A DNA stretch of 33,982 nucleotides from Dehalococcoidia bacterium. Lineage in GTDB: Bacteria; Chloroflexota; Dehalococcoidia; SHXV01. The translations under genes and the position numbers were made by a program. The stretch is from assembly GCA_009693105.1 (NCBI GenBank), contig SHXV01000012.1, positions 1 to 33,982 of the forward strand, in the 5' to 3' direction. Each line of letters starts with the position of its first letter. Positions within the stretch are counted from its first letter, which is position 1. This document shows, one piece after another, positions 4,397-22,115 of this stretch. The notes below the pieces were generated by a model, which was given only the letters and a program-made list of their open reading frames with translations, did not search any database and was not told the DNA's origin.

Positions 4397-4474
4397 CGCG
4401 GCAGAGTCTATCCTGTATTGCCAGCCAATGCTAGCATCGTTTACATATTGATAATCGGACGGGTCAGAGCGACG

Positions 4475-6823
4475 GTGCAGGCAACGAGGAACGAAGGGCA
4501 GAGAAACGCGTTCCTAGACGTTGTCCGGACCGTGGCGATTCTGCGCGTCGTGGCCTGGCACACCTACGGCTACGCCGTCCTTTCCTACCTCATCGCCTCT
4601 ATGCCAGCCATGTTCTTCGTCGCCGGGGCGCTCATGGCGCACTCGCTCCGCCGCGGGGGCGCGCTCACGGTGCTGTACCGCCGGTTCTACCGGCTCCTGA
4701 TCCCCCTCTGGCTGATCGGCGCCTTCGCCATCGCCGTCATGATCGGCTACAACCACCAGAACCCCTCCCCTGCCACGCAGTTCGATCGGACAAACGTGCT
4801 CTGGTGGATCCTGCCGATATGGGACCCCCAGGGGTCAGACTGGGGACTGACCTGGTGGACCACCCTCTGGTATTTGCGCGCGACGGCGTGGCTGCTGCTG
4901 GCCAGCCCTCCGCTGCTCTGGCTCTGGCGCAGGATCGGCCCGGCGCTGCTCATCCTGCCGCTCCTAGGGATCATCCTCACGGAGGAACGGCTGCGCGCAG
5001 ACCACACGCTTGCCTGGCAGGTGCAGGACTTCGCCCTCTACAGCTTCTTCTGGATGCTGGGATTCGCTTATACCGATGGTCTGTTCGCGCGCTTTTCCAC
5101 GCCGGTACGGGCCCTCCTAGCCCTGGCCTTCGCGGTCGAGGCCGCTGTCTGGGCGCTGACCCAGGACGTGCCGGGGGGCATCGTCAACGCATCCTATCCC
5201 CTCCACCTGTTGGTGGGGCTGGCGTGGCTGTTCGGAGCGCTGGCGATCGAAGCCCCGCTGGGGCGGCTGGCGCAGAGGCCGCGCATCAGCAGCGCCATCT
5301 ACTGGGTGAACGAGCGCGCGCTGACGATCTACCTGTGGCAGTCCGCCGGCCTGTTCTGCATGTACCAAATCCTGTGGGCGGAGCCCCATTCCCGCCTGAC
5401 GCGCGATCTCCTGGCGTTGCCTATCGTCGCCTCCGTCACGCTGCTGGCCACACTGCTCTTCGGCTGGGCGGAGGACGTCGCCGCCGGACGAGCGCCACGG
5501 CTCTGGCCGCGAAGGCCGGGGTCGCCCCAGCGGAGACGGGGCGCTCTCTCCACCGCTGCGCTCGGCCTCGCCGCCACGGCGATGGCCGCGAGCGGGCTGT
5601 GGGCCGTGCTGGTCACGGGGGGCGATGTGGTGGCCGAAAGCGCCACCACGCTGGGAACGTCCCGCGCCCGCACGGTGCCGCCATCCGGCGTCGGGCTGCG
5701 CCTGCGAACGGAGCGCGCCCGGATATTCGCCAGCGCGCCGACCCCCGCCGCTCCGAGCCGGACGAGGCCGGTCACAACAGTGGAACTCCAGACCGATTTG
5801 GAATCGTGGCTCAACGAGAAGGGGTTCTCCGGCGCGACCGTCACCATCATGCGGGGATCCGGCGAAACATGGACCGGCGCCGCCGGACTTCATGCATGGG
5901 GAACGCCCTTTGAGGCGAACGAGTTATATGGCATCGCCAGCATCACCAAGACGTTCACCGTGGCGCTCATCATGCGGCTCGTTGAACACGGGCTCGTCGA
6001 TCTGGACGCCCCCATGAGCCACTACGTGCGGGAATACCCACTGGCCAGCCAGTTCACCGTGCGGCAGCTCATCCAGCATCGCAGCGGTCTCATCCCAACC
6101 GACCAGCTCCCCCCGGATGAGGCCCTGGCGGAGGCTGAACTGGCCGGGCTGCAATTCGAGCCGGGGAGCGACTTTCTCTACTCGACTCCCGGCTACATGC
6201 TGCTGGGTCTCGTCATTGAAAACGTGATGAACCGCTCCTACACGGAGGTCCTGCACCGGGATCTCCTCGACCCGCTCGGACTCACCTTCACCTACATGGA
6301 TGAAGACCTCCTGCCCCTTGATTACTCGACCCATCCCTATTGGGTCCACCCTGAGCTCGGTTACTACGGCATCCTCTGGTCGGCGGGAGGGATCTGGTCG
6401 ACAACGGAGGACCTTGCCCGTTGGGCGAACGCCCTCTGGGGCGGGGACACCGTCGTCTCGCCCGCATCGCTAGATGCGATGACCACATTCCTCGGGCGCG
6501 AGTTCGCTTTCACCGGGCTGGGCACCTACCCCTTCTGCCCCTGCTGGACGGAAGACAGGCGGCTGCGGGCCGACACGTGGGGTCACCTGGGCGTCAGCGG
6601 AATGATCGAGTACGACCCCGAGGACCGGATCGCGGTCTCCATGTCCATCAGCGGCACCCTCGTGGACGAGAACGTCGAGATGGCGCTCGAGGATCTCAGC
6701 ATCCGACTGCGCGATCTCATTCGCGGGCGGCCGTTCGCCGCTGCGGAGCCCGACGCGGGGCCCGCCGCCGAGCCGGCTGTAGCGCCGGCGGACGAATCCG
6801 AGGGAGAGTCCGCGACCGACTAG
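4475..6823 (+). CDS. Acyltransferase_3 membrane domain fused to class C beta-lactamase-like serine hydrolase
   Basis: N-term RNAFLDVVRTVAILRVVAWHTYGYA... multi-TM acyltransferase-3. C-term GIASITKTFTVAL (SxxK), FLYSTPGYMLLG (Y motif), WGHLGVSG (third motif). The track start 4418 is TTG; GTG 4475 is a more likely start. Confidence 0.85.
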   Translation: MQATRNEGQRNAFLDVVRTVAILRVVAWHTYGYAVLSYLIASMPAMFFVAGALMAHSLRRGGALTVLYRRFYRLLIPLWLIGAFAIAVMIGYNHQNPSPATQFDRTNVLWWILPIWDPQGSDWGLTWWTTLWYLRATAWLLLASPPLLWLWRRIGPALLILPLLGIILTEERLRADHTLAWQVQDFALYSFFWMLGFAYTDGLFARFSTPVRALLALAFAVEAAVWALTQDVPGGIVNASYPLHLLVGLAWLFGALAIEAPLGRLAQRPRISSAIYWVNERALTIYLWQSAGLFCMYQILWAEPHSRLTRDLLALPIVASVTLLATLLFGWAEDVAAGRAPRLWPRRPGSPQRRRGALSTAALGLAATAMAASGLWAVLVTGGDVVAESATTLGTSRARTVPPSGVGLRLRTERARIFASAPTPAAPSRTRPVTTVELQTDLESWLNEKGFSGATVTIMRGSGETWTGAAGLHAWGTPFEANELYGIASITKTFTVALIMRLVEHGLVDLDAPMSHYVREYPLASQFTVRQLIQHRSGLIPTDQLPPDEALAEAELAGLQFEPGSDFLYSTPGYMLLGLVIENVMNRSYTEVLHRDLLDPLGLTFTYMDEDLLPLDYSTHPYWVHPELGYYGILWSAGGIWSTTEDLARWANALWGGDTVVSPASLDAMTTFLGREFAFTGLGTYPFCPCWTEDRRLRADTWGHLGVSGMIEYDPEDRIAVSMSISGTLVDENVEMALEDLSIRLRDLIRGRPFAAAEPDAGPAAEPAVAPADESEGESATD

Positions 6824-6907
6824 GGCGCGGCCCTCCCACCGGAGCCGTGCGCGATTTCACACCCGCGCGCTATACTGCAGCGCACAATCCAAATGGAGGG
6901 TATTCCA

Positions 6908-9301
6908 ATGGCCGGGCCACTTGCCGGTATCCGCATCATCGATATCTCGGAGCGGTCGCCCTCGGCGGCCATCGCGGGCATGCTGCTGTCCGACCTGGGC
7001 GCCGAGGTCATCCGCGTCGAGCCCGCGGGCGGCGACCCGATCCGGCAGCTCGACGGCTCCCGGGTCTGGCTGCGGGGGCAGAAGAGCGTCACCGTAGACG
7101 ATGAACGGGTGAAGGACGGCTCATGGCTCACCCTCCGCGCCTCCGCCGACGCGATCATCAACACAGTGCAGCCGTGGACGGACAAGCCCTCCGGCCTGCT
7201 CGGTGGGTGGACCGAGGATTCCGGGCAGGTCCTCGCCATCCTCACCGCCCGCCCGCAGTCGGTGGAAGCGGCGCAGCAGAGCGCCCAGAACGCTCACAGC
7301 GGTGCCGGTCCCGCCGTGTACGGGGAGATCGCGGAAGCGGAGTACGGGTTCGATTACATCCAGGACGGAGTACGGGAGGCGCCGCTGTTCCTCGGCTTCC
7401 CTCACGCCACCTACGGCGCGGCCTGGACGCTCACCAACGCCACCCTCTCCGCGCTGTACGAACGGGAGCGCGGCGGCCGGGGCCAGGTGCTGACGACGTC
7501 ACTCCTGGATGGGATGGCCATCCTGGCCACCCACCGCTGGAACGGCGGCCCCGGCCTCTCCGGCCCCGCCGGCAGCGGCCAGACCCGCACCCGCATCGGC
7601 CGGATGGGCGTCAACCGCTCGATCGTGTCGCTGTTTGAGTGCAGCGATGGCCTGTGGGTGCAGGCCCACACGGGCGCCCGCGGGTCATTCGACCGGCTGG
7701 CCATCGCCATGGGGCGCCCGGACCTGCTCATGGAAGAGAGCGCAGCCCAGCAGATGACGCCGGAGATGGCCGAGGATCTGTGGACGCACTACATCGCCAC
7801 CTTCAAGACACAGCCGGCCCAGCACTGGTTCGATGTGCTGGCGGAGGCGGATGTGCCCTGCATGCCGGCGTTCCCCCCGGGAGACGCGCTCTGGTTGGAG
7901 CAGACCGTGGCGAACCAACAGGTGGACATCGCCCCGGACAGCACGCGCCAGCTCGGTAAGCTCGTGAAGTACGCCCGCACCCCGCTGGAGATCGATCGCA
8001 CCGTGGCCTCGGTGGGCCAGCACAACGGTGCGCTGTTCGCGGGGCCGCTTCCGGCACACACGCCCGTTGCCCCCACCCAAAGAGCGCCGAACGGCGCGGG
8101 CCGTGTCGGTCCGCTGGACGGTCTCCTGGTGCTGGACTTCGGGTTCTACATGGCGGGGCCCTTCTCTCCCCGCAACCTGGCGGACCTGGGCGCGCGGGTA
8201 ATCAAGTTCGAAGAGATGATCGGCGACCCCATGCGGCGCTCCACGGTCAACGGGGGCTTCCTCGGCGTGCAGCGCGGCAAGGAAGGGCTAGCGATCAATC
8301 TCAAATCGGACGGAGGACGGACAATCGCCTACGAGCTGGTGAAGAAGGCGGACGTTGTCCACCACAACCAGCGCTCCGCGGCGGCAAAGCGGCTGGGAAT
8401 CGACTACGACACGCTGCGTGAGCTCAACCCGCGCATCATCTACTGCCACTCCTCCGGCTACGGCAACGACGGCCCCTGGGCCCAGCTGCCCACGTTCGAG
8501 CCGCTGCACTCCGCCGCCACGGGAATGCTGCACCGCACGGGCGGGCGCGGCAACCCCCCGAACCACTACGTCACGCACATGGACTACGGCTGCGGCCTCA
8601 CCTCCACCGCGGCAGTGCTGGCCGCGCTCGTCGAGCGAGAGCGCACCGGCCAGGGGCAGTACCTTGAGGTGCCTCAGATCGGCGCCGGACTGCTAGCCAT
8701 GTCCGATGTCCACGGCAAAGAGCGGGGCAAGGTGGTGGAGACGTTCGGGCTGGACCACGACCTTACCGGCCACGCCCCCACGAACGCCATATACCGCACC
8801 AGCGACGATCACGTGGTGATCGCCTGCCTGGGCGATCGGGAATGGCGGGGCGTGGAGCGGTCGCTCGGTCTCGCTGCCGGCTCCCTGCCCGATTTCGCAT
8901 CGGCGCGGCGAGAACAGATGGAGACGAGCGCGACGGCGAAGGCGCTGGCCTCCGCCCTGGCAAAGCTGACGACGGCGGACGCCCTCCGCCGGCTGGCGGC
9001 GGAGGGCGTCCCCTGCGCCCAACCGCGCCAGTTCCCCGGCTCGGCTGCCGTCGCCGATCCGCTCCTGCTGGACAACGGTATCATCGTGCGGGAGGATCAC
9101 CCAGCGGTGGGAGAGATTCTGGAAGTGGGCCACAGCGCCCGCTTCGGCCACGCCACCACGTTCCACCAGCGGCCGGCGCCGGAGCTGGGCCAGCACACGG
9201 CGCAGATACTGCGGGAGCTGGGGCGGACGCCGGAGCAGATCGAAGCGCTGATCGCGGAAGGAGCGGTGCTGGCGCACCCTCGACTCTCAAAAGTGCGCTG
9301 A
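6908..9301 (+). CDS. Tandem two-domain CaiB/BaiF family (class III) CoA-transferase, copy A
   Basis: MAGPLAGIRIIDISERSPSAAIAGMLLSDLGAEVIRVEP... and a second start-like domain GPLDGLLVLDFGFYMAGPFSPRNLADLGARVIKFEE; GGAGG SD before ATG 6908. Confidence 0.92.
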   Translation: MAGPLAGIRIIDISERSPSAAIAGMLLSDLGAEVIRVEPAGGDPIRQLDGSRVWLRGQKSVTVDDERVKDGSWLTLRASADAIINTVQPWTDKPSGLLGGWTEDSGQVLAILTARPQSVEAAQQSAQNAHSGAGPAVYGEIAEAEYGFDYIQDGVREAPLFLGFPHATYGAAWTLTNATLSALYERERGGRGQVLTTSLLDGMAILATHRWNGGPGLSGPAGSGQTRTRIGRMGVNRSIVSLFECSDGLWVQAHTGARGSFDRLAIAMGRPDLLMEESAAQQMTPEMAEDLWTHYIATFKTQPAQHWFDVLAEADVPCMPAFPPGDALWLEQTVANQQVDIAPDSTRQLGKLVKYARTPLEIDRTVASVGQHNGALFAGPLPAHTPVAPTQRAPNGAGRVGPLDGLLVLDFGFYMAGPFSPRNLADLGARVIKFEEMIGDPMRRSTVNGGFLGVQRGKEGLAINLKSDGGRTIAYELVKKADVVHHNQRSAAAKRLGIDYDTLRELNPRIIYCHSSGYGNDGPWAQLPTFEPLHSAATGMLHRTGGRGNPPNHYVTHMDYGCGLTSTAAVLAALVERERTGQGQYLEVPQIGAGLLAMSDVHGKERGKVVETFGLDHDLTGHAPTNAIYRTSDDHVVIACLGDREWRGVERSLGLAAGSLPDFASARREQMETSATAKALASALAKLTTADALRRLAAEGVPCAQPRQFPGSAAVADPLLLDNGIIVREDHPAVGEILEVGHSARFGHATTFHQRPAPELGQHTAQILRELGRTPEQIEALIAEGAVLAHPRLSKVR

Positions 9302-10516: not shown

Positions 10517-11275
10517 TCAGCCCGCCGACCCCGTGAGGTGCTTTCCGTAGAAAGCAAAAACCTTGCTCCAGCCATCCACCGCCTGATCCGGCCGGTAGCC
10601 GGCCCGGTCCACGGCGAAGAAGCCGTGGCCGGCCCCGTCGTAGCGGTGAAACTCGTACCCCTTGCCGTGCCGCTTCAGCGCTTCCTCCGTACGATTGACC
10701 TGATCGACGTTCGGGTTGGTGTCGTCGTTACCGAAGAGGCCCATCAGGGGACAACCCAGGCTCGGCGTCAAGTCGATCACCGGCACCGGCCGCTTGTCGT
10801 TGAGCTGGGCCGGATCGTCGACGATGACGCCACCACCCCAGCAATCGACCGCTGCGTTCAGCTCGGGCAACCGGCAGGCCACCATGTAGGTCTGGCGGCC
10901 GCCAGAACAGAAGCCGATGACGCCGACCTTGCCGTTGGCGTAGGGCTGGGCGCGCAGGAAGCGGGCACAGCCCCCCACATCGCCCACGACCTGGTCATCG
11001 GCCACACCGCCCTCGGCGCGGGCGCGGGCGGCGACATCGTCCGGGCTGCCCGGACCGGAGCGTGAATACAGGTGCGGGGCGATGGCGGCGTAGCCGTGCT
11101 GCGCGAATTTCCGCGCCACTTCGCGCGTCCACTCGTCCCAGCCCGGCATGTGGTGGATCACCACCACGCCGGGGTACGGCCCGGCGCCCAGCGGCCGCGC
11201 ATAGTAGGCCTCGATCTCGTCACCGCCGTGGCCGCGGACAACGAGTGTTTCGGCAAGCATCCCTTCATACGTCAT
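10517..11275 (-). CDS. Dienelactone hydrolase family protein
   Basis: MTYEGMLAETLVVRGHGGDEIEAYYARPLGAGPYPGVVVIHHMPGWDEW..., GVIGFCSGGR (Cys nucleophile elbow), GAGHGFF; AGGAGA SD upstream. Confidence 0.92.
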   Translation of the reverse strand: MTYEGMLAETLVVRGHGGDEIEAYYARPLGAGPYPGVVVIHHMPGWDEWTREVARKFAQHGYAAIAPHLYSRSGPGSPDDVAARARAEGGVADDQVVGDVGGCARFLRAQPYANGKVGVIGFCSGGRQTYMVACRLPELNAAVDCWGGGVIVDDPAQLNDKRPVPVIDLTPSLGCPLMGLFGNDDTNPNVDQVNRTEEALKRHGKGYEFHRYDGAGHGFFAVDRAGYRPDQAVDGWSKVFAFYGKHLTGSAG

Positions 11276-11339: not shown

Positions 11340-11368
11340 TTTACGCGTCCCTCCCGTAGTTGTATGGT
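11340..11368 (+). promoter_or_regulatory. Candidate promoter of the fur-NiCoT operon
   Basis: TTTACG (11340-11345), 17-nt spacer, TATGGT (11363-11368). Confidence 0.4.
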
Positions 11369-11376
11369 ATGGGCTA

Positions 11377-11392
11377 TTGCAATGAGTTGCAG
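11377..11392. promoter_or_regulatory. Candidate Fur-family (Nur-like) operator
   Basis: TTGCAATGAGTTGCAG: inverted repeat TGCAA-N4-TTGCA placed at the expected transcription start and 13 nt before ATG 11406. Confidence 0.5.
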
Positions 11393-11405
11393 AAAGGACC
11401 GGTCG

Positions 11406-11855
11406 ATGAGCTGCGAAGCGGAGACCACTACGGTGCTGCGTGACCACGGCCACCGCATCACGCCGCAGCGCATGCTCATCCTCTCCTCCCTCCGCCACGC
11501 CGCGGGCCACATCTCCGCCTCCGACATTCTTGAAAGGGTGCAGCGGTCCTATCCCTACGTCGATATCTCCACGGTGTACCGGACCCTGAGCGTGCTGAAG
11601 GATCTGCACCTGGTGACGGAGACGCAGATGGGCGGGGAAAACGCCACGTTCGAGTGGCTGGGGCCGGAGCCGCACCATCACCTGATCTGCCGCAAGTGCG
11701 ACCAGGTAACCCTGCTGGACCACGACCACTTCACCGAGCTTGCTTCCGGGATCCTGCGGGAGACCGGGTTCCACCCGGACATCGATCACTTCGCCATCTT
11801 TGGCCTGTGCGCGGAATGCCGAGAGGCAAACCAGAATGAGAGCGGCCCGGCATGA
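11406..11855 (+). CDS. Fur-family metalloregulator (Fur/Zur/Nur type)
   Basis: MSCEAETTTVLRDHGHRITPQRMLILSSLRHAAGHISASDILERVQRSYPYVDISTVYRTLSVL...; metal site EPHHHLICRKC and C-terminal CAEC. Track start 11364 probably too early. Confidence 0.92.
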   Translation: MSCEAETTTVLRDHGHRITPQRMLILSSLRHAAGHISASDILERVQRSYPYVDISTVYRTLSVLKDLHLVTETQMGGENATFEWLGPEPHHHLICRKCDQVTLLDHDHFTELASGILRETGFHPDIDHFAIFGLCAECREANQNESGPA

Positions 11856-12949
11856 CGGAGCGATCGGGCGATGGCTCCGGCGGGCGCTGGCCATTCTCCC
11901 GGGCGGAGAACGGCCAGCTCTTCGTTATGTACGGGTTCATCGCCCTCCTCCACCTGGCGGGCTGGGGGCTGTTCTTCGCCTACGCCGGCAGCTTTGGCCC
12001 GGTGTACGCCGGCGCCGGGGCGCTGGCCTACGGGTTCGGGCTGCGCCACGCCTTCGATGCCGACCACATATCGGCGGTGGACGACACGACACGACTCATG
12101 CTTCAGCGCGGTGGGCGCCCCCTGAGCGTGGGTCTATTCTTCTCCCTGGGGCATTCCACCATCGTCTTCCTCCTCTGCCTCGGCCTGGCGCTATCGACCC
12201 GGGCGATCGAGGGGCGGATGGATGTGCTGGGCGAGGTGGGCGGCGATATCGGCGGAACGGTCTCCGGCACGTTCCTGTGGGCGGTCGGGATACTGAACCT
12301 CATCGTCTTCTGGGGGATCTACCGCGTCTACCAGGAGATGCGAAAGGGGCGGTACAACCGGGAGCGCCTGGAAGACCTACTGGTTCAGCGCGGGTTCATG
12401 AATCGCCTCCTGGGCAGCCGCCTCCGCAATGCCATCACCAAGAGCTGGCACATGTACCCGCTGGGGGTACTCTTCGGGCTCGGGTTCGACACGGCGACAG
12501 AGGTGGGGCTCCTGGCCGTAACGGCGGGCGCGGCCTCCACCACCACCAGCTCTGTGGAAGGTCACCTGCCCGTGCTCGGCATCCTGGCGCTGCCCCTCTT
12601 GTTCACGGCGGGCATGACCTTAATGGATACGACGGACGGGGTATTCATGTCCAAGGCGTACCGCTGGGCGTTCACCAACCCGCTGCGTAAGGTCTACTAC
12701 AACCTGACGACCACGGCGCTCTCCATCTTCGTCGCTTTGACGGTGGGGACCGTGCAGTACCTTCAGGTGATCCGGTCGCAGCTGAATATCGAGAATCGGT
12801 TCTTCAGCTGGCTGGACAGGCTGGACTTTGAGACGCTTGGCTACGGCATCGTCCTCGTCTTCCTCTTGACCTGGGTGGGCGCGGTCATCCTGTTCAAGGT
12901 ACGGCGCGTCGAGGAGCGCTGGGGCGACCTCATTCCTGACGACAGCTAA
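11852..12949 (+). CDS. NiCoT family nickel/cobalt permease (HoxN/NixA-like)
   Basis: RHAFDADHISAVDDTTR signature, second signature LGFDTATE, SLGHSTIVF; ATGA overlap with the fur stop. Confidence 0.92.
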   Translation: MTERSGDGSGGRWPFSRAENGQLFVMYGFIALLHLAGWGLFFAYAGSFGPVYAGAGALAYGFGLRHAFDADHISAVDDTTRLMLQRGGRPLSVGLFFSLGHSTIVFLLCLGLALSTRAIEGRMDVLGEVGGDIGGTVSGTFLWAVGILNLIVFWGIYRVYQEMRKGRYNRERLEDLLVQRGFMNRLLGSRLRNAITKSWHMYPLGVLFGLGFDTATEVGLLAVTAGAASTTTSSVEGHLPVLGILALPLLFTAGMTLMDTTDGVFMSKAYRWAFTNPLRKVYYNLTTTALSIFVALTVGTVQYLQVIRSQLNIENRFFSWLDRLDFETLGYGIVLVFLLTWVGAVILFKVRRVEERWGDLIPDDS

Positions 12950-14086: not shown

Positions 14087-14247
14087 CATCTCCCCCTGTT
14101 CGCTCGCCAGCACCGGACTGGACACGGAAAGCCTGTAGGTTATACCACCGCGGCGGCTCCCCTGCCACTGGCGAAGTGCGGTCACGCGGTATACGCTATC
14201 TACCTTTCCCGCCCACGAGCGTTCGTGCCAGCGAAGGGAGCAGCGCG

Positions 14248-16800
14248 ATGCCAGAAGTGGAGATGCGACCGGACACCCCCTTGTCCGATATCCGTGTTAT
14301 TGAGCTGGCCGATGAGCAGGCGGAGTACTGCGGCCGGGTGCTTTCCGGGCTGGGCGCCGATGTGATCAAGGTCGAACCGCCGCAGGGCAGCCCTACCCGT
14401 CGCATCGGGCCGTTCTATCAGGACCGGGAAGACCCTGAGGGCTCCCTCTACTTCTGGCACTACAACCTGGGAAAGAAATCGGCCGTCATCGATATCGAGA
14501 CGGGGCCGGGCAACCAGCAATTCCTGGACCTGCTGGCCACCGCTGACGTTTTCCTGGAATCGACGCAGCGGGGCTATCTGGAAGGGCTTGGTCTGGGCAG
14601 GGAGGCGCTGCAACAACGCTACCCCAACCTGATCATCGCCCGCGTATCTCCCTTCGGCGACGAAGGGCCGTGGGCTGACTACAAGGGGAGCGACCTGGTT
14701 CACCTGGCGATGGGCGGCCCCATGATGTTCACGGGCTACGCCCCCCGGCCGGACGGCACGTATGAGCTGCCGCCCATCGCCCCGCAGGCGTGGCACGCCT
14801 ACCACATCGCGGGGGAGCTGCTGCTCATCGGCGTGCTGGGGGCGCTGCTCCACCGCCGGGAGACGGGTGAGGGCCAGTACGTGACCTGCCCCGTGCACCA
14901 GGCGGTGGCCTGCAATACCTCGCCCGATCTACTGCGCTGGGTGTTCAACCGCTCCAAGCTCTCCCGCGCCCCCTTCGCCCAGCTCGCCCCCTCCAAGGAC
15001 GGCAGGCTGTTCTTGGCCTCTCCCCCGACCGTGGGAGTGAAGACGAACTGGGACAAGTTCGTAGACTTCATGGACGGCCACAAGAGCGCCGCCGACCTGC
15101 GTGATGAGCGCTACCAGGTGATGGGCGACCGTTCCCTGCAGGCGGACCCGGAGATGAGCGCCCACGTGCGGGAAGCGATCGCCCGGCTCGTCGGCAAGTA
15201 CACGGCGGCGGACGTGCCCTGGCAGGAAGCACAGGAGAACGGCTTCCTCTGGGGGCCGGTACGGCACGCCCACGAGAACGCGCTCGATGAACACTGGCGG
15301 AAGCGGGGAACGATTGCGGATGTGGAGCACGAGGACCTGGGCCGGACGTTCCCCTACCCCGTGGCCAAGTGGGCCTCCGACACCACCACATGGCGCATAG
15401 GGCCGCGCGCGCCCCACATCGGCGAGCACACGGCGGAGGTGATGGCGGGCCTGCCACGCCGGGCCGTGCGCATCGAGGTGCGCCCGACGGCGGACCAGCG
15501 CCGCTCCCGGCTGGGCAAGCCCTTCGCCCTGCACGGCGTGCGTATCCTCGATTTCACCTGGTGGCTGGCATCGGGCGGGGCGCCGCGTTATCTCTCCGCG
15601 CTGGGGGCGGAGAACATCAAGGTGGAGTGGAAGGGCGCGCCCGATCTTCGTACCGGCGCATTCTGGGGGCACTTGCCCGTCGGCGGGCGGGAAGCGCGCA
15701 GGAACGCGACGGGGCCGGTGCCGCCGGACCTGAGCACCAATAACCACAACGGCGAGTTCAACGACTGGCACGCCGGCCAGCGCGGCATCTCCCTCAACGT
15801 GCGCAACCCGAAGGGGTTGGAGATCGCGAAGCGGCTCATCGCCACGTCAGACATCGTCGTCGAAGGCTTCTCCCCCGGCGTCATGGCAAGCTGGGGTCTG
15901 GGCTACGGCGTGATGAAGGAGCTGAAGCCGGACATCATCTACGCGCAACAGTCCGGATTCGGGCAGAGCGGCATCTACGGCAAGTACCGCTCGTTCGATA
16001 TGCTTTCCGCCGCGATGGCCGGGGTGCTGGAGATGGCCGGGCTGCCGGAGCCCGCCCCGCCGGTGGGCTGGGGCTACGTGTTCATGGACTGGTTCGGCGC
16101 CTTCAACCTTGCCGCCGCCATGCTGACGGCGCTGAACTACAAGGCGCGCACCGGCAAGGGCCAGTGGATCGATTCCGCCCACGCGGAGGGCGGCATTTTC
16201 CTGAACGGCGTGACCATGCTGGACTGGGCGGCGAACGGAAGGGAGTGGCATCGCACCGGCAACCGCTCCCCGCACAAGGCGGCGGCGCCGCACGGGGCGT
16301 ACCGCTGCGAGGGCGCCGATCGCTGGGTCACGATCGCCTGCTTCACGGAGAGCGAGTGGGAGGCGCTCTGCGCGGTGGCGGCTCACCCGGAATGGCGCTC
16401 CGATCCGCGCTTCCGCACGTTGAAGGACCGCGTCGCCAACCAGGACGCGCTGGATGCCGCCCTGGAGGGTTGGACGTCCACGCAGGAACGCTACGCCGTC
16501 ATGCACCGGCTACAGGGGGCCGGCATCGCCGCAGGGGTGTGCCAGGACGCGGAGGACCGCTGCGAGAGCGATCCGCAACTGGCGGCGCTCAACTGGCTCA
16601 CCGAGCTGGACCAGACCGAGATGGGCCGGTGGCCGGTGAGGGAGGTGCCCGTGAAGATGAGCGGGACGCCCCCCTTCATGGGCGGCGACATCGACCGGGG
16701 AGCGCCCTGCTACGGCGAGGACAACGAGTACGTGTTCGGGGAGCTGCTGGGCATGTCATCGCAGCAGGTCCGCGATCTGGCCGAAGAGGGCATCATCTAG
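14248..16800 (+). CDS. Tandem two-domain CaiB/BaiF family CoA-transferase, copy B (divergent from A and C)
   Basis: IRVIELADEQAEYCGRVLSGLGADVIKVEPPQG... and second domain LHGVRILDFTWWLASGGAPRYLSALGAENIKVEWKG; GGGAG SD before ATG 14248. Confidence 0.92.
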   Translation: MPEVEMRPDTPLSDIRVIELADEQAEYCGRVLSGLGADVIKVEPPQGSPTRRIGPFYQDREDPEGSLYFWHYNLGKKSAVIDIETGPGNQQFLDLLATADVFLESTQRGYLEGLGLGREALQQRYPNLIIARVSPFGDEGPWADYKGSDLVHLAMGGPMMFTGYAPRPDGTYELPPIAPQAWHAYHIAGELLLIGVLGALLHRRETGEGQYVTCPVHQAVACNTSPDLLRWVFNRSKLSRAPFAQLAPSKDGRLFLASPPTVGVKTNWDKFVDFMDGHKSAADLRDERYQVMGDRSLQADPEMSAHVREAIARLVGKYTAADVPWQEAQENGFLWGPVRHAHENALDEHWRKRGTIADVEHEDLGRTFPYPVAKWASDTTTWRIGPRAPHIGEHTAEVMAGLPRRAVRIEVRPTADQRRSRLGKPFALHGVRILDFTWWLASGGAPRYLSALGAENIKVEWKGAPDLRTGAFWGHLPVGGREARRNATGPVPPDLSTNNHNGEFNDWHAGQRGISLNVRNPKGLEIAKRLIATSDIVVEGFSPGVMASWGLGYGVMKELKPDIIYAQQSGFGQSGIYGKYRSFDMLSAAMAGVLEMAGLPEPAPPVGWGYVFMDWFGAFNLAAAMLTALNYKARTGKGQWIDSAHAEGGIFLNGVTMLDWAANGREWHRTGNRSPHKAAAPHGAYRCEGADRWVTIACFTESEWEALCAVAAHPEWRSDPRFRTLKDRVANQDALDAALEGWTSTQERYAVMHRLQGAGIAAGVCQDAEDRCESDPQLAALNWLTELDQTEMGRWPVREVPVKMSGTPPFMGGDIDRGAPCYGEDNEYVFGELLGMSSQQVRDLAEEGII

Positions 16801-18949: not shown

Positions 18950-19585
<636 letters not shown>

Positions 19586-19622
19586 GTCAGTCCTCCTTGC
19601 TTTGCTGGCGTTCGGGGGTCAC

Positions 19623-19650
19623 ATTGTTGCACATTGCGGCAGGGAGTCAA
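19623..19650 (-). promoter_or_regulatory. Candidate promoter for the Prx6 gene
   Basis: Minus strand TTGACT, 16-nt spacer, AACAAT; AAGGAGG SD follows before ATG 19585. Confidence 0.4.
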
Positions 19651-19751
19651 GGGAGCGCCGTGCGGAGCATTGCCCCGGTGGCGTATCATCGGTGGCGCAT
19701 AGCCGCGTACGGCGTCTACCCATGTTTCTTCGAGATGGAGGGAGTTCTCTT

Positions 19752-22115
19752 ATGGCTGGTCCACTCACAGGCATCCGCGTCATCGATTGTTCCGAGCGGT
19801 CGCCCGCGACCGCCGTGGCGGGGATGATCTTCGCCGACCTTGGCGCGGAGGTGATCCGCGTGGAGCCGCAGGGCGGCGATCCGCTGCGGACGCTGGCCGC
19901 ATCGCGCGTCTGGCTGCGGGGGCAGAAGAGCGTCATCGTGGGCCCGGAGCAGGTACGGGACGGCTCCTGGGCCCGGCTCCGCGACTCCGCCGATATTGTC
20001 CTGGACACGGCGCACCCCTGGACCGCGAAGCCTGCTGGGCTGCTGGACGGCTGGGAAGCGAACGAGCGTCAGATCCTGTGCGTGCTCACGGCGAACCCGG
20101 AAGCCGTGGCCGACGCGACCAACGGGCCGCGCCTGGGACAGCCCGTGTACGGCGAGCTGATCGAGAGCAAGTTCGGTTTTCAGGATGTCCAGGCGGGCCA
20201 CCGGGACGGGCCGATCTTCCTCGGCTGGCCACACGCGGCCTACGGGGCGGCCTGGCTGATCCAGATCGGCGTACTGGGCGCGCTGTACGAGCGGGAGCAC
20301 ACGGGGAAGGGGCAGGCGATCACCACGTCCCTCCTCGATGGCATGGCCATCCTGTCCGCCGGCCGCTGGGGCGGCGGCGACAAGGTGGTGGCCATGCCAT
20401 CGCCGCGCATGCGGGGGAACGTGCTGGGCACCACCCGCGCCGTCGTATCGCTGTTCGAGTGTGGCGATGGGAAGTGGGTGCAGACGCACACGTATTCGCG
20501 GGGCGCCTTCGACCGGATGATGGAGATCGTGGAGCGTCCCGACCTGGTGGATCCCACTATCACTTCCCCGGTGGCTCAGCTGGAGCCGGCGGTGGCGGAG
20601 GAGATGTGGGACTACCTGAGGAAGAAGTACAAAACGCGTCCGGCGCAGGAATGGTTCGACGCGCTGTGCGCGGCGGACGTCCCCTGCCAGATCGCCAACC
20701 CGCCAGGAGACTCACTCTGGCTGGAGCAGCTCCGCGTCAATGAGCAGATCGACATCTCCCCGGAAGGCATCCGCCAGCTGGGCAAGGTGGCGCGCTTCAG
20801 CCGCACCCAGATCGAGATCGACCGGCGAACGCCGAAGCCCGGCGAGCACACGGCCGCGCTTCTCGGCGCGCCGGCGCCGGGCAGCAACGGACGGCACCCG
20901 AACGCGGCCGCCTCCACGAAGAAGGTGGGGCCGCTGGATGGCGTGCTGGTGTTGGACTTCGGGTTCTTCATCGCCGGGCCGTTCTCGCTCCGGATGCTGG
21001 CCGATCTGGGCGCACGCGTGATCAAGATCGAGGAGCTGAGCGGCGACCCGATGCGCGGGCCCAACAGCAGCTTCCTCTCCGCTCACCGGGGCAAGGAAAG
21101 CCTCTCCGTCAACCTGAAGACGGAGGAGGGGCGAGAGGCCGTGTATGAGCTGGTCCGCCGCGCCGACATTGTCCACCACAACATGCGCGCCGGGGCGACG
21201 ACTCGCCTCGCCATCGATTACGAGACGCTGAGCACAATCAACCCGCGCATCATCTACTGCCACTCCTCCGGCTACGGCAACGCCGGCCCATGGTCCCACC
21301 TCCCCGCCTTCGAGCCGCTCCATTCTGCCGCCACGGGCCTGCTCAACCGCACGGCCGGGGAAGGCAACCCGCCAATGATGTACCTCTCCCACATGGACAT
21401 CGGCTGCGGCCTCACCTCTGCGGTCATGGTGCTGGCGGCGCTGGCGGAGCGGGAACGCAGCGGCAAGGGGCAGTACTTTGAAGTGCCCCAGATCGGGGCG
21501 GGGCTGCTGGCGTGCTCGGACATCTTCATCGAGGGTGACAAGGTCTCGGAGACCTTCCCCCTCGACTCCAAACAACGCGGCCACGCCCCCACGAACGCGC
21601 TGTACCAGACGAGCACCGGCTGGATCACGCTGGCCTGCTACTGCGAGCAGGAGTGGCAGGGCGTGCGCCGGGCCCTGGCCGACGCCGCTCTGCCCTGGAA
21701 AAGCTACGCGGAGGCTCGCGGGGAGCGCATGGGCGCAAGCGCGATCAGCGCGGCGCTGGATGCGGCCTTCGCCGGCATGACGACGCTGGAGGCGCAGCGC
21801 CGGCTGGATGCGGAGGGCGTGCCCTGCACGGTGCCGACGCCGCTGGATCAGCAGCGCTTGCTCGTTGAGCCCCAACTGCACGATCTGGGCGTGGTCGTGC
21901 TGGAGAACCACCCGGAGCTGGGGACGATCTGGGAGACTGGCCACACCATCCGGTTCGGGCGATCCACGGAGCGGCACGCCCGTCCGGCGCCGGTCATCGG
22001 CCAGAACACGGCCGCCATCCTGCGGGAGATCGGCAGGACCGATGCCCAGATCGCGACGCTGCTGGAGCAGCAGGTGGTTCGTGCCGCCGATTGGCGGGAG
22101 CCGGTAGAGACATAA
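19752..22115 (+). CDS. Tandem two-domain CaiB/BaiF family CoA-transferase, copy C (paralog of A)
   Basis: MAGPLTGIRVIDCSERSPATAVAGMIFADLGAEVIRVEP..., second domain GPLDGVLVLDFGFFIAGPFSLRMLADLGARVIKIEE. The track ORF 19194 start is an antisense-region extension; the GGAGG-type SD precedes ATG 19752. Confidence 0.92.
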   Translation: MAGPLTGIRVIDCSERSPATAVAGMIFADLGAEVIRVEPQGGDPLRTLAASRVWLRGQKSVIVGPEQVRDGSWARLRDSADIVLDTAHPWTAKPAGLLDGWEANERQILCVLTANPEAVADATNGPRLGQPVYGELIESKFGFQDVQAGHRDGPIFLGWPHAAYGAAWLIQIGVLGALYEREHTGKGQAITTSLLDGMAILSAGRWGGGDKVVAMPSPRMRGNVLGTTRAVVSLFECGDGKWVQTHTYSRGAFDRMMEIVERPDLVDPTITSPVAQLEPAVAEEMWDYLRKKYKTRPAQEWFDALCAADVPCQIANPPGDSLWLEQLRVNEQIDISPEGIRQLGKVARFSRTQIEIDRRTPKPGEHTAALLGAPAPGSNGRHPNAAASTKKVGPLDGVLVLDFGFFIAGPFSLRMLADLGARVIKIEELSGDPMRGPNSSFLSAHRGKESLSVNLKTEEGREAVYELVRRADIVHHNMRAGATTRLAIDYETLSTINPRIIYCHSSGYGNAGPWSHLPAFEPLHSAATGLLNRTAGEGNPPMMYLSHMDIGCGLTSAVMVLAALAERERSGKGQYFEVPQIGAGLLACSDIFIEGDKVSETFPLDSKQRGHAPTNALYQTSTGWITLACYCEQEWQGVRRALADAALPWKSYAEARGERMGASAISAALDAAFAGMTTLEAQRRLDAEGVPCTVPTPLDQQRLLVEPQLHDLGVVVLENHPELGTIWETGHTIRFGRSTERHARPAPVIGQNTAAILREIGRTDAQIATLLEQQVVRAADWREPVET

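Follow-up and report, generated by a model that had tools for sequence, protein, structure and literature searches.

The closest described counterpart of the system presented here is Nur of Streptomyces, whose operator reads tTGCaa-N5-ttGCAA (PMC3919588). NikR, a nickel-dependent repressor of nickel importers, is a further point of comparison, as are RcnR, NmtR, HypA and HypB, a set of nickel proteins in which the N-terminal amine is a metal ligand (PMC7055735). The window analysed here, a stretch of 33,982 nucleotides of DNA from an uncultured Dehalococcoidia bacterium (Chloroflexota), carries on its forward strand a gene for a 149-residue Fur-family regulator (11406..11855; start codon ATG at 11406, stop codon TGA at 11853-11855) and one for a 365-residue NiCoT nickel/cobalt permease (11852..12949), the stop of the first overlapping the start of the second in ATGA (11852-11855). 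The regulator scored 91.5 bits against Pfam FUR (cut-off 23.1), and the permease 348.5 bits against TIGR00802 (HoxN/HupN/NixA; cut-off 333.05) and 292.8 bits against Pfam NicO. The permease translation contains RHAFDADHI, in which HAFDADH fits the HX4DH-type motif of NiCoT (TC 2.A.52); motif and TIGR00802 match place the protein in that family, with Ni2+/Co2+ transport as its predicted function. The Fur-family/NiCoT operon of the preliminary description was thus borne out, all of its named elements being found in place and both families scoring above their cut-offs. The regulator start at ATG 11406 is preferred over an in-frame ATG at 11364 because 80 of 89 relatives start exactly 18 codons before TPQR. 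An RBS-like AAAGGAC, as read from the sequence, lies on the forward strand between the operator and the start codon (11393..11399).

The operator, TTGCAATGAGTTGCAG (11377..11392), consists of the half-sites TTGCAA (11377-11382) and TTGCAG (11387-11392) separated by TGAG (11383-11386), with the ATG at 11406 13 nt further on; its palindromic core, TGCAAT-GA-GTTGCA (11378-11391), is even-centred. It was the only exact match to TGCAAY-NN-RTTGCA in the 1.23-Mb assembly (84% complete), where a 14-mer of this kind is expected by chance 0.085 times, or about 1.4e-5 times in 200 bp, given the window's composition. There were also two one-mismatch boxes in the same genome, one (C34:7373) without a metal-related neighbour and one (C12:82) at a contig start, so placed that its gene is possibly off the contig. 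Orthologues were sampled from 148 genomes of the same class and from 80 named loci in public records, almost all of them from Chloroflexota. Of the regions upstream of related regulators, 88 were distinct, and TGCA-N6-TGCA occurred in 37 of these, against a mean of 0.42 and a maximum of 2 in dinucleotide shuffles, and half-site gaps of 5 or 7 bp, the latter being the published Nur spacing, in none of the 88. The earlier concern over the N4 spacer, as a possible sign of altered specificity, was well founded, the N4 spacing being a family-wide trait. Gaps of 2 and 12 bp were found at 16 loci each, which shows that there are sites with an additional, third half-site at an offset of 6 bp; overlapping dimer sites of Fur-family proteins resemble this arrangement. 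Because related species are not independent, the box counts overstate the number of independent events; the sharp half-site spacing is independent of species relatedness. That an operator sits at the start site accordingly held up, since the position, sequence and spacing of the palindrome are kept upstream of orthologous regulators. The regulator of Dehalococcoides-like genomes is itself preceded, at a distance of about 30 nt from its start, by a box with one mismatch.

A promoter-like TTTACG-N17-TATGGT (11340..11368, forward strand; TTTACG at 11340-11345, TATGGT at 11363-11368) was read from the sequence and matches the consensus at 8 of 12 positions, which falls below the threshold of a stricter promoter scanner. 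Relatives have better promoters at the equivalent position with respect to the box. A box with at most 2 mismatches was present at 48 loci; 37 of them have a recognisable sigma-70 promoter, and at 28 of the 37 the box follows the -10 element at a distance of 5-7 bp and covers the transcription start. In the window, where the promoter is weak, this gap is 9 bp. A box 5-7 bp after the -10 element is placed where a repressor would block polymerase, as expected of an autorepressor, and the autoregulation proposed in the preliminary description is on these grounds probable. The proposal that the divergent dienelactone hydrolase gene, which starts at 11275, about 100 bp from the operator, shares the control region was not supported, as none of 29 further regulator loci examined for comparison had the hydrolase. 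A riboswitch was dropped as a reading of the locus because the window has no match to an Rfam family.

A subgroup of 20 regulator loci has a GTAGACT promoter element, typically a glcD-like gene downstream, and no box. The element lies just a few bases upstream of the start codon (L059, L063, L065, L067, L071, L084, L087, L092 and others), and the transcripts of these regulators are possibly leaderless. The glcD-like FAD oxidase gene overlaps or trails the regulator, and the subgroup includes a named species, Tepidiforma flava.

The gene that follows the regulator varies by lineage: NiCoT in the window, and elsewhere NicO/UreH-like permeases, CbiM/NikMNQO or ZnuA-type ABC systems. Anaerolineales have a CooC-like ATPase in this place (nearest PDB entry CooC, E 4e-19), followed, by our reading, by an FmdE-like protein. 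A close relative of the NiCoT permease (62% identity) was found in only one other of the 148 class genomes (G022), with an exact box upstream and the regulator on another contig, that is, with the box in trans. The outcome that the earlier proposal had named as refuting it, a palindrome not conserved upstream of orthologous operons, was thus not observed: the palindrome recurs before orthologous regulators and before the sole other close NiCoT relative. The other 21 matches of the NiCoT search were distant, about 13 of them, by our count, adjoining a regulator match.

Exact boxes also precede genes elsewhere, such as cbiM in one genome (G113), FmdE-family genes, an operon that combines a lipoprotein with a NikL-like subunit and CbiM-Q-O, and a methyltransferase with a NikABCDE-type ABC operon in single-contig genomes labelled Dehalococcoides-like from their reductive dehalogenase. 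By reading, about 41 of the 69 exact sites in the 148 genomes lie in metal-uptake or FmdE-type contexts and about 26 look like chance; a reversed control pattern gave 24 matches in all. Among the targets envisaged beforehand, nickel-type transporters were recovered (NiCoT, cbiM and the NikABCDE-type operon), whereas no SOD gene, the Nur targets being sodF and sodN, was recognised behind exact boxes, to which the scan was confined.

Several of these neighbourhoods have features of their own. The box of the Dehalococcoides-like loci (L138, L139, L157, L180) lies between a MarR-type regulator gene and the methyltransferase gene heading the peptide/nickel-type ABC operon. FmdE-family genes recur beside the regulator or behind a box (L137, L140, L181, L105). 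Lipoproteins of the ANGEDFVRQGFVSKDGWS type (L171, L174, L175, L200) have no Pfam or NCBIfam match; their gene adjoins the NikL-like and CbiM-Q-O genes, with one or two boxes before it, and the protein is a candidate new component of nickel uptake.

The regulator can be placed in the Fur superfamily by its FUR domain and predicted Fur fold; its AlphaFold model (pLDDT 85.5) matches Fur-family structures at E about 1e-11. Nur, Fur and PerR were not told apart by this structure search. The nearest solved structure, and best PDB match, is S. coelicolor Nur (3eyy), and Nur came first in a profile search with 126 bits, the runner-up scoring 106. The Chloroflexota regulators and Nur form one clade in two trees (support 100/100 and 98/99), in which Nur is represented by a single sequence with a long branch. 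The choice of Nur as the nearest known relative is upheld by all three lines, PDB match, profile score and clade. The phylogenetic comparison with other Fur-type regulators was clear in one respect, as an AU test rejected a clade with gamma-proteobacterial Fur (p = 0.0002), and left another undecided, placements with Zur (p = 0.10) and PerR (p = 0.09) not being formally rejected.

His35, His90, His92 and His128 of the regulator align with Nur His33, His88, His90 and His126; almost every member has His128, and none of the Fur, Zur and PerR references does. In place of the Nur nickel ligands His70, His72 and His86 stand Glu72, a Gln or Asp at position 74 and a residue that varies, none of them His in the window. 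At the N-terminus, which in the window reads M-S-C-E, Cys3 and Glu/Asp4 are found in 77 of the 80 loci that start exactly 18 codons before TPQR, and position 2 is limited to S, G, T, A or P, giving the consensus M-[SGATP]-C-E; Cys3 is patchy outside the regulator clade. The 18-codon rule fixes the start without a Cys criterion, although an earlier locus table preferred starts followed by Cys. A small residue at position 2 normally allows Met removal, so that the mature protein is predicted to begin (Ser/Gly)-Cys-Glu. Tentatively, and with the odds against it, the regulator may have a nickel-sensing site of a kind new among Fur-family proteins, made up of the N-terminal amine, the Cys thiolate and conserved histidines, in a lineage of nickel repressors distinct from Nur that spans Dehalococcoidia.

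Operon layout, the box and its conservation, its position after the -10 element and its recurrence before unlinked metal-uptake genes were established by computation; from these we infer binding, repression and nickel as effector, and we consider the resulting explanation likely. The regulator and NiCoT genes would form one operon, and a dimeric Fur-family repressor loaded with metal, most likely Ni2+, would bind TGCAAY-NN-RTTGCA over the transcription start and block RNA polymerase, turning off its own gene and that of the permease; when nickel is scarce, the repressor would release and the importer would be made. Among related Chloroflexota, this pair of regulator and box would govern different, non-homologous importers. 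The whole is a conserved, probably autoregulated metal-uptake module, best read as extending across the class.

Nickel is the metal to which this circuit most plausibly responds, and we give it good credence, with cobalt and zinc considered alongside. It is favoured because unrelated Ni/Co importers are mixed behind the regulator and box, because CooC-like and NikL-like genes are among them, because NikR is nearly absent (one of 148 class genomes), and because NiSOD co-occurs with the regulator, being found in 26 of the 30 genomes that have a close orthologue and in 33 of the other 118 (Fisher p 5e-9, relatedness ignored). The NiSOD association holds also for the glcD-type members without a box. 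Of the 148 genomes, 59 encode NiSOD and about 50 encode hydrogenase-type proteins. The case for nickel is not exclusive, because there are ZnuA-type proteins with zinc-like ligands and because the window's own assembly (84% complete) has a B12-binding protein and no recognised nickel enzyme: NiSOD, urease, LarA and a convincing NiFe hydrogenase were all sought there and none was found. LarA was thereby discarded as the genome's missing nickel enzyme, and a PF00374 match (E 6.5e-4) was too weak to count as a hydrogenase.

The B12-binding protein and the lack of a recognised nickel enzyme would suit a sensor of cobalt, or of cobalt and nickel jointly, working through the same circuit with a response to Co2+ and with NiCoT supplying cobalt for cobalamin. 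The NiCoT and CbiM families do include cobalt importers, and one box (L182:320) lies between the regulator and a magnesium/cobalt-chelatase-like ORF. That is the single case to suit cobalt, however, no B12-synthesis operon being otherwise among the box-preceded genes, and the CooC-like and NikL-like genes, relatedness to Nur and NiSOD co-occurrence favour nickel; we judge a cobalt sensor unlikely. A zinc or manganese uptake regulator of the Zur or Mur type, with the NicO-type and ABC transporters importing zinc or manganese, seems distinctly improbable. ZnuA-type binding proteins, one with a zinc-like His3-Asp ligand set, follow the regulator or box in many loci, and the AU test does not reject a clade with Zur, yet zinc does not account for the NiCoT, CbiM/NikL and CooC-like genes, and the position of His35 is Phe in actinobacterial Zur references. 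The usual targets of Zur are zinc-independent ribosomal protein paralogues and COG0523 GTPases, along with znuABC; neither of the first two was seen among the genes listed behind exact boxes, where ZnuA-type ABC genes were present. Finally, although it is the single such site in the genome and the window promoter is weak, it is very improbable that the box is a chance match or the site of another factor through which the operon is not controlled, as its sequence, spacing and position are kept in relatives and it recurs before unlinked transporters.

Other parts of the window and its genome also drew attention. In one ORF (4418-6823) Pfam matches place an acyltransferase-3 domain together with a beta-lactamase-type domain, possibly an unusual fusion, and three long ORFs (6893-9301, 14176-16800, 19194-22115) resemble, by eye, double-length CaiB/BaiF CoA-transferases. 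A second Fur-family gene of the genome (G000:C17:3-131; L002, L194; E 2.9e-7) is incomplete at a contig start.

Most Dehalococcoidia and SAR202 have yet to be cultured; many of them encode nickel enzymes, yet almost none has NikR. A nickel-responsive repressor of the kind proposed would offer a specific regulator, operator and target-gene set, testable in Dehalococcoides cultures, and would flag the lipoprotein, the FmdE-like proteins and the methyltransferase as likely parts of nickel uptake. No earlier description of this regulator and box was found in the literature searched, RegPrecise and most subscription papers lying outside its scope.

Among known systems, Nur of S. coelicolor shares with that of the window its TTGCAA-type half-sites and its nickel-uptake targets. 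The two differ in spacing (N5 in Nur, N4 in the window and its regulator family), in Nur's full histidine ligand sets for two nickel sites, of which the window regulator keeps four positions and has three replaced, in the M-[SGATP]-C-E start, which is absent from the aligned part of Nur, and in that the window regulator, unlike Nur, adjoins its transporter gene. Because Nur's box spacing and full ligand set are not found, the regulator is best read as working like Nur without being a strict Nur, and is filed as a variant within the Fur family. Zur, Fur, Mur and PerR have the CxxC pairs and fold in common with it, but scored lower than Nur against it, gamma-Fur is rejected as a clade partner, and their boxes differ from that of the window. 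The N-terminal amine that serves RcnR and HypA as a nickel ligand is analogous to the site proposed here, although RcnR, NmtR, HypA and HypB belong to other protein families. NikR, too, is of an unrelated family, yet it is the functional slot of NikR that the window regulator seems to fill.
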